The notes under the pieces: generated by a model | What the model saw: the letters and a program-made list of their open reading frames with translations, nothing else | What the model was told of the DNA's origin: nothing | The model's database searches: none | Translations under genes and position numbers: made by a program | Shown here: piece by piece, positions 15,808-15,988 of the stretch | Layout of the letters: each line of letters begins with the position of its first letter | How positions within the stretch are numbered: the stretch's first letter is position 1 | Origin: Nitrosomonadales bacterium | GTDB taxonomy: Bacteria > Pseudomonadota > Gammaproteobacteria > Burkholderiales > Gallionellaceae | Reading direction: 5' to 3' | Length of the DNA stretch: 35,260 nt | NCBI GenBank assembly: GCA_025350915.1 | Contig: JANXWX010000236.1 | Location: 1-35,260 of the forward strand

Positions 15808-15811
15808 GGTT

Positions 15812-15841
15812 TTGACCTATTAATTAAAGTTGAACTAATTC
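15812..15841 (+). promoter_or_regulatory. Candidate promoter of the hemB-engB intergenic RNA
   Basis: TTGACC (15812-15817) and TAATTC (15836-15841) are 18 bases apart on the plus strand, directed away from hemB. The predicted start falls near 15848, exactly where the first hairpin begins. The -10 box is a partial match. Confidence 0.4.
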
Positions 15842-15847
15842 ATTTTT

Positions 15848-15968
15848 ACATGATCAGAACATCATGTGGCTAACACCACAGTCCGCTGTTTTACTCCCTG
15901 AGCGGACGTCTTAACAAGGTTAAGACTTTTGCCCCTGGCTTATCCCCTTTGTCCAGGGGCATTTTTTT
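15848..15968 (+). ncRNA. Candidate small regulatory RNA, Spot 42/ErsA-like position
   Basis: About 121 bases, free of open frames, form a row of hairpins. Hairpin 1 is ACATGAT/ATCATGT (15848-15867). Next is an alternative small stem, GTGG/CCAC. Hairpin 2 is GTCCGCT/AGCGGAC (15881-15907) with a 13-base loop containing ACTCCCT. Hairpin 3 is GTCTTAAC/GTTAAGAC (15908-15926), followed by four T. The last is a GC-rich terminator hairpin with loop TATCCCCTTTG. Two loops carry CUCCC or CCCC, which could pair with Shine-Dalgarno sequences. The RNA would be convergent with engB, the arrangement of Spot 42 (E. coli) and ErsA (Pseudomonas) next to yihA/engB. The primary sequence does not obviously match either. 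Structure is seen; function is inferred. Confidence 0.6.
15931..15968 (+). terminator. Strong intrinsic terminator, plus-strand only
   Basis: GCCCCTGG (15931-15938) pairs with CCAGGGGC (15953-15960), followed by A and seven T. On the minus strand the hairpin is followed by AAAAG, so it cannot end the engB transcript. With no plus-strand protein gene upstream, it points to a plus-strand RNA. Confidence 0.85.
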
Positions 15969-15988
15969 GCCCATCGTTCGCCAGAAGC

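Follow-up and report, generated by a model that had tools for sequence, protein, structure and literature searches.

What does the gap between hemB and engB encode on the strand opposite to both genes? The question is raised by a stretch of 35,260 nucleotides (hereafter the window) from a Nitrosomonadales bacterium of the family Gallionellaceae, for which the original prediction proposed an undescribed, trans-acting small RNA in the position that Spot 42 and ErsA occupy beside engB. We find in this gap a real, strongly conserved small RNA gene of about 106 nt that folds into four hairpins, and we trace below its structure, promoter, relatives and probable mode of action.

The RNA gene and its structure

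The location in the hemB-engB gap, on the opposite strand from these two genes, is borne out by the open reading frame (ORF) map together with matches to the Pfam families ALAD and MMR_HSR1. The start of hemB lies 55 bases upstream of the start of the RNA, the two being divergent, and engB is convergent with the RNA (Table 1). No plus-strand gene is apparent upstream of the RNA, where the ORF list holds only frames overlapping hemB. The engB-hemB adjacency recurs in 75 of the best 80 loci from an EngB scan of named genomes; the titles of these loci name Gallionellaceae, Gallionella, Sideroxydans, Nitrotoga, Nitrosomonadales and less specific groups, with one Methylophilaceae, and the nearest is Gallionellales bacterium 39-52-133 (EngB 97%).

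Table 1. Features of the hemB-engB region, with positions numbered along the window
Feature	Position	Strand	Basis
hemB, delta-aminolevulinate dehydratase	14806..15807	-	ORF; Pfam ALAD, 461.7 bits
-35 element, sigma-E type, TGAACT (consensus of relatives GGAACT)	15831..15836	+	conservation in 75 upstream regions
-10 element, sigma-E type, TCAGA (consensus TCTGA), spacer 17	15854..15858	+	conservation in 75 regions
Small RNA, diverged orthologue of anti-hemB (RF02837)	15863..15968	+	matches to RF02837, R1 and R2
Hairpin 1 (5' hairpin), beyond the match of the Rfam model	15865..15880	+	fold; compensatory change in 7/7 pairs
Hairpin 2, holding the CU-rich loop	15881..15907	+	fold; helix 2 paired in 99.0% of cells
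CU-rich loop of hairpin 2, GUUUUACUCCCUG, likely seed	15888-15900	+	CTCCCT conservation in relatives
Hairpin 3 (GUCUUAAC/GUUAAGAC)	15908..15926	+	fold; compensatory change in 5/8 pairs
Hairpin 4, intrinsic terminator with C-rich loop	15930..15968	+	terminator scan; fold; compensatory change in 7/8 pairs
T7 of the terminator	15962-15968	+	terminator scan
engB/yihA GTPase gene	15989..16600	-	ORF; Pfam MMR_HSR1; tblastn to annotated yihA genes

The four predicted hairpins were recovered by folding positions 15850-15990, which yields -47.6 kcal/mol compared to a shuffled mean of -32 (z -4.36), none of the 200 shuffles being as stable, and the terminator scan confirmed the plus-strand terminator with its run of seven T. 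All four helices covary. RNAalifold, applied to an alignment of 64 transcripts (the window and 63 loci, out of 75 sequences; identical ones were removed and L101 is also absent), delineated 29 pairs in four helices, and the compensatory change in relatives that had been named beforehand as a point on which the prediction should stand or fall is present in 22 of these pairs. In the same alignment, paired cells amount to 98.0% compared to 88.8% after shuffling and the covariation measure is 0.418 compared to 0.234, with none of 500 shuffles as high; moreover, the covariation signal collapses when the helix partners are slid against each other. The same structure is seen in 98 distinct rows, nearly all drawn from other families of the order (97.1% paired), and in 102 rows from other orders (93.7% paired), both alignments leaning towards the model because they were fitted to it.

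The region contains no conserved open frame, as had been stated: over 75 transcripts the longest closed frame ranges from 0 to 30 amino acids and its start is not conserved, the window RNA itself having a 16-codon ATG frame at 15864. A hidden small protein was thus rejected as a candidate.

As a separate feature of the locus, several Gallionellaceae carry, 3' of the RNA terminator, a GC-rich inverted-repeat element (CTTGCTTGCATAC...GTATGCGGCGCGGCGATTT). It was detected at 11 loci (L097, L107, L119, L124, L132, L140, L143, L150, L152, L076 and L089) and in nine of the 16 engB-hemB gaps that exceed 250 bases, and has no match in the window.

The promoter motif

With respect to transcription, the original prediction had relied on a house-keeping pair, TTGACC-N18-TAATTC, from which a transcript of about 121 nt would follow. 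We rejected this promoter. The promoter scan did not list the pair, TAATTC fits TATAAT at only 2 of 6 positions (by eye), and TTGACC or TTGACA occurs in none of the 72 relatives with 70 bases upstream, the best -35 fit at the matching place (within 3 bases) being 2 to 4 of 6. What is conserved instead is a box of another type. Among the 75 aligned upstream regions, the window included, the -35 element reads GGAACT in 67, TGAACT in seven and GCAACT in one (NGAACT in 74/75); the -10 element reads TCTGA in 49, TCTTA in 10, TCAGA in nine, TCTCA in five and otherwise in two (TCNNA in 75/75); and the spacing is 17 in 73 regions and 18 in two. The incomplete L148 was excluded from this count and the core regular expression missed L107, L119, L123, L128 and L154; in the first three of these five the RNA is present by covariance search, and the last two yielded no match. 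GGAACT-N17-TCTGA has the form of the sigma-E consensus, GGAACTT-N16-TCTGA, and the box of the window, TGAACT-N17-TCAGA, departs from the consensus of its relatives at two positions. Since the conserved box begins 19 bases beyond the pair originally proposed, the start of the RNA is placed near 15863 and its length at about 106 nt.

The box keeps its place well outside the Gallionellaceae. Its end lies 2-7 nt upstream of the RNA start in 75 of 108 hits from the order, compared to a mean of 0.045 after shuffling (maximum 1 in 200 rounds), and in 49 of 101 hits from other orders of the class, compared to a mean of 0.02 (maximum 1), these counts not being independent events because the sequences are related. 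Background windows match the pattern at 0.04% (order) and 0.36% (other orders). By the same pattern the box is absent from 29 of the 105 order loci outside Gallionellaceae and was not found in the rpoE locus of the genome studied here (L173); genome-wide, GGAACT-N16-18-TCWGA occurs twice compared to five times for the reversed control, that is, without excess. On its sequence, the conserved promoter looks like a sigma-E (RpoE/AlgU) type.

It could be argued that the RNA acts in trans but that a house-keeping (sigma-70) promoter drives it and the GGAACT/TCTGA block has some other role; a paralogue in the same genome, on contig C47, indeed has no sigma-E box and shows upstream a TTGCAT-N18-TAATAT-like pair (by eye). 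We regard this as unlikely, given that both the spacing within the block and the block-to-RNA distance are retained in many families, and that the block has the form of the sigma-E consensus and resembles the sequence upstream of an ErsA gene. Also consistent with house-keeping transcription, ncS04, the form of this RNA in Burkholderia cenocepacia, did not change significantly in any column of the published table consulted, SDS being among the stresses applied (PMC5688073).

Family membership, distribution and the variable loop

The RNA did not prove to be undescribed. At the gathering threshold Rfam has no match anywhere in the window; below it, the anti-hemB model RF02837 matches 15882-15968 over its full length (1-81 of 81) with 43.9 bits and E 2.1e-9, short of the cut-off of 49.5, and the next match by score in the region, in a search to E <= 10, is PrrF at E 0.03. 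Orthologues between engB and hemB exceed the cut-off in the nearest relative (G001:C16, 53.8 bits) and in G004:C56 (64.5 bits), and fall below it in G002:C71 (48.2 bits) and G003:C3 (38.0 bits). Across 60 genomes of the family, RF02837 has a match at E <= 0.01 in 58 and above the cut-off in 55, not always at this locus. At E <= 0.001 it also matches three of 14 control genomes, none above the cut-off, so that weak model hits without engB may be due to chance; the controls were searched with RF02837 alone. Sequence comparison, including the copy of the nearest relative that passes the cut-off, identifies the window RNA as a diverged orthologue of anti-hemB, a known Rfam family; the new points are the sigma-E type promoter and the wide association with engB. 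The literature consulted also includes PMC3521395 and PMC10987360.

To delineate the family, we used two covariance models: R1, derived from the Gallionellaceae relatives, the window among them, and R2, derived from RNAs of other orders in an alignment made with R1. R1 scores the window RNA at 84.5 bits, the window itself having helped to build it, and the sole match of R2 in the window is to 15863-15968 (70.1 bits). R1 finds the RNA in 78 of the best 80 EngB loci, which is a census and not a test because 63 of these sequences built the model. In wider searches, R1 has matches at E <= 0.001 in 110 of the 150 order genomes and in 68 of 92 genera; in the class it matches 93 of 369 genomes. EngB played no role in the selection of these hits. 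The order loci cover 104 of the 106 hit genomes outside Gallionellaceae (all except G390 and G451), part of the second copies, and the four Gallionellaceae genomes hit except G278 and G292; the class loci cover 87 of the 90 genomes of other orders with a hit (all except G090, G091 and G240). In the order, engB is present in the stretch at 96 of 108 loci (convergent with the RNA at 80, in reversed arrangement at 15 and scored as overlapping at one) and was not found in the stretch at 12, with hemB upstream at 82 of 108. In the other orders, engB is present in the stretch at 61 of 87 loci, mostly within 150 bases and up to about 1 kb away at tandem copies, and was not found in the stretch at 26; hemB was detected beside the RNA at none of the 87.

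Several variations on this arrangement were observed. At the 15 turned-round order loci (e.g., L229, L232, L238, L257 and L266) engB lies upstream on the same strand as the RNA, and the box is kept in 11 of them. Tandem arrays of two to four copies are found at L306, L357, L359 and seven other class-level loci (four copies in L306 and L357), mostly beside engB (not found for L331 and L342), with several copies having their own sigma-E-like box. A counterexample is G111 (L272/L032), which has the best class-level RF02837 score (65.7 bits) and in which no engB, hemB or box was found next to the RNA. Searches with R2 of named engB regions from Neisseria, Acinetobacter, Legionella, Aeromonas and Sinorhizobium gave a best score of 16.2 bits, none convincing. 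As an aside, NZ_CP119142.1, NZ_CP119140.1 and other records of the plasmid collection hold engB at whole-chromosome size (e.g., Neisseria gonorrhoeae, 2.17 Mb) and, on account of this size, look mis-filed.

The constant part of the family is the loop of hairpin 2, near-invariant as CUCCUCCCUGAGCG in 65 of 75 relatives; its core, CTCCCT, is shared by 73 of 75 RNAs from Gallionellaceae, 105 of 110 from the order and 92 of 102 from the class. One of the C-rich loops originally singled out as seeds, ACUCCCU, is a variant of this near-invariant loop; the other, that of the terminator, is C-rich in most relatives without being constant. A changed loop at engB is seen in the window, in its sister L004/L092 and in L005. 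The window's genome (G000) and the nearest relative (G001) each have a second copy in which the loop is the usual one and the upstream sequence differs and lacks the box; G004, with one hit, has kept the usual loop at engB. In the handful of genomes sampled, a changed loop at engB together with a second, usual-loop copy fits a scenario of duplication and divergence. A third, weak copy is present at G000:C233:55-159 (47.9 bits). The paralogues L034 (G000:C47) and L008 (G001:C15), with the canonical loop and no sigma-E box, share an AT-rich upstream region (TTGCAT...TAATAT), and L034 is flanked on one side by a frame whose DsbH-like match is below threshold and on the other by a YgjP-like frame.

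Predicted function and relation to known small RNAs

We propose, with some confidence, that the window encodes a sigma-E (RpoE)-transcribed, Hfq-assisted small RNA acting in trans, the CU-rich loop of which blocks ribosome-binding sites in the manner of ErsA. The same genome has genes for Hfq (105.2 bits) and for RpoE (298.6 bits), the latter adjoining that for RseA (RseA_N, 59.7 bits). Under the predicted scheme, envelope stress would free RpoE from RseA, and RpoE would then read TGAACT-N17-TCAGA, the transcript running for 106 nt to the T7 terminator. Through the CU-rich loop of hairpin 2, perhaps aided by the C-rich loop of the terminator, this RNA would pair with purine-rich ribosome-binding sites of target mRNAs and block their translation, much as has been reported for ErsA and sX13. 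Expression, dependence on sigma-E, Hfq binding and the existence of such targets are thereby predicted for the window RNA, which would be the Gallionellaceae copy of an engB-locus family spread over many members of the class, with Rfam anti-hemB as its Burkholderia form. Action in trans through C-rich loops, as originally suggested, is the most likely reading, supported by the conserved CTCCCT loop and by the failure to find hemB beside the RNA at any of the 87 loci of other orders.

An alternative, which we hold to be slightly less probable even than house-keeping transcription, is a cis-acting antisense RNA that would adjust haem synthesis by covering either the leader of hemB or the mRNA reading through from engB into hemB. 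The RNA is antisense to the engB-hemB unit, hemB lies upstream at 82 of the 108 order loci, and a review lists hemB as a predicted target of Burkholderia Bc7 (PMC6321483). Nevertheless, control of hemB in cis is disfavored as the main role because at the 87 loci outside the order, 61 of which have engB, no hemB was detected next to the RNA; furthermore, the RNA is turned round relative to engB at 15 of 108 order loci, and what is constant in the family is a loop rather than an extended duplex with hemB. That the region is only a terminator or a processed 3' end, which would close a longer transcript of the plus strand or shield engB from hemB, is highly improbable: a plus-strand terminator does exist, but it has no apparent plus-strand gene upstream, is accompanied by three more covarying hairpins with a near-invariant loop and a promoter motif at a fixed distance, and belongs to an RNA that occurs in dispersed and tandem copies.

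Compared to anti-hemB (RF02837; also Burkholderia RNA 7 and ncS04, probably Bc7), the window RNA shares the hemB adjacency, the central hairpins and the terminator, and differs in its score under the cut-off and in the loop changed to GUUUUACUCCCUG; its extra 5' hairpin and sigma-E type box are not mentioned in the passages of the anti-hemB literature drawn on here. In B. cenocepacia the RNA, as ncS04, is reported to be bound by Hfq and has been blotted (PMC5688073). Anti-hemB has been known from an Rfam entry and from published expression, and the same passages name neither a regulator nor a function for it; the conserved sigma-E type promoter, if borne out, would place this RNA, found in most of the order genomes sampled and in roughly one in four of the class genomes sampled, in the envelope stress response. 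The double-hairpin RNAs of RF02278, the Betaproteobacteria toxic small RNA (ncS27, with S17 similar), also have CU-rich unpaired stretches aimed at ribosome-binding sites (PMC5688073; PMC11722255); they occupy other loci, and RF02278 does not appear among the matches in the window region up to E 10.

The location beside engB bears out the comparison with Spot 42 and ErsA. Spot 42 (spf, RF00021) lies at the polA-yihA locus, convergent with yihA, and is repressed by CRP. RF00021 is not listed in the region at E <= 10; at E <= 0.001 it does not match the window's genome and matches one of 369 class genomes; E. coli spf is the best R1 match in its 10-kb stretch, its scores of 17.5 (R1) and 17.2 bits (R2) being near background, with other R2 stretches at 14.7-16.2.

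ErsA (Pseudomon-1, RF01719) comes from the polA-engB locus and depends on sigma-22 (PMC8575079), and since the conserved promoter of the window RNA is of the sigma-E type, the parallel is closer than the original prediction could know. ErsA pairs with the ribosome-binding site of algC, with Hfq (PMC6321483). The two loci have the engB side in common, with hemB instead of polA on the other side of the window RNA, and both RNAs have a sigma-E type box and a C-rich terminator loop. In G166 the ErsA gene (L378; RF01719, 121.3 bits) lies downstream of a DNA polymerase I gene, with the EngB match on another contig; it is preceded by TGAACT-N18-TCATA at the same distance as the window-type box and, with filters off, is picked out by R1 (24.0 bits) and R2 (27.4 bits); it has no CUCCUCCCUGAGCGG hairpin. 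RF01719 does not match the window's genome at E <= 0.001 and is not listed at E <= 10 in the region. It matches 13 of the 369 class genomes, one above the cut-off; eight of the 13 matches overlap R1 or anti-hemB hits, and engB lies within the 3-kb stretch in 11.

The third comparison is with sX13 of the Xanthomonadaceae (RF02232, likewise missing from the matches to E 10 in the window region), which lies beside polA and whose C-rich hairpin loops pair with G-rich motifs near start codons, repression requiring these loops and motifs and not Hfq (PMC3771888). Some class RNAs bridge Rfam families now kept apart: anti-hemB is matched at one place together with sX13 (L053 and L060), with ErsA (L322, L323 and L325) or with the alphaproteobacterial ar14 (L054, L060, L369 and L373), and L315 has an sX13 match where R1 also hits. 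The second matches are all below the family cut-offs, with E from 0.0004 to 0.09; engB is in the stretch for L054, L315, L322, L323, L325 and L373 and was not found for L053, L060 and L369. In a literature search conducted mostly outside subscription papers, we found none joining ErsA/Pseudomon-1, sX13 and anti-hemB (a 2010 paper has both Pseudomon-1 and RF01719) and no title on a sigma-E-type small RNA at engB/hemB.

The authors of the sX13 study asked whether small RNAs of similar action are encoded at the polA locus in other bacteria as well (PMC3771888), a question on which the present findings bear in that the engB side of this locus widely holds one recognizable RNA. We hypothesize, giving the idea about an even chance, that anti-hemB, ErsA, sX13 and possibly Spot 42 all descend from a single ancient small RNA that the beta-/gammaproteobacterial ancestor carried at its engB/polA locus. 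It would have been transcribed ancestrally by sigma-E and would have carried an anti-Shine-Dalgarno-like CCUCCCU hairpin loop. In the genus of the window, the loop of the engB copy would have changed once a further copy had arisen that kept the original loop under a different promoter.
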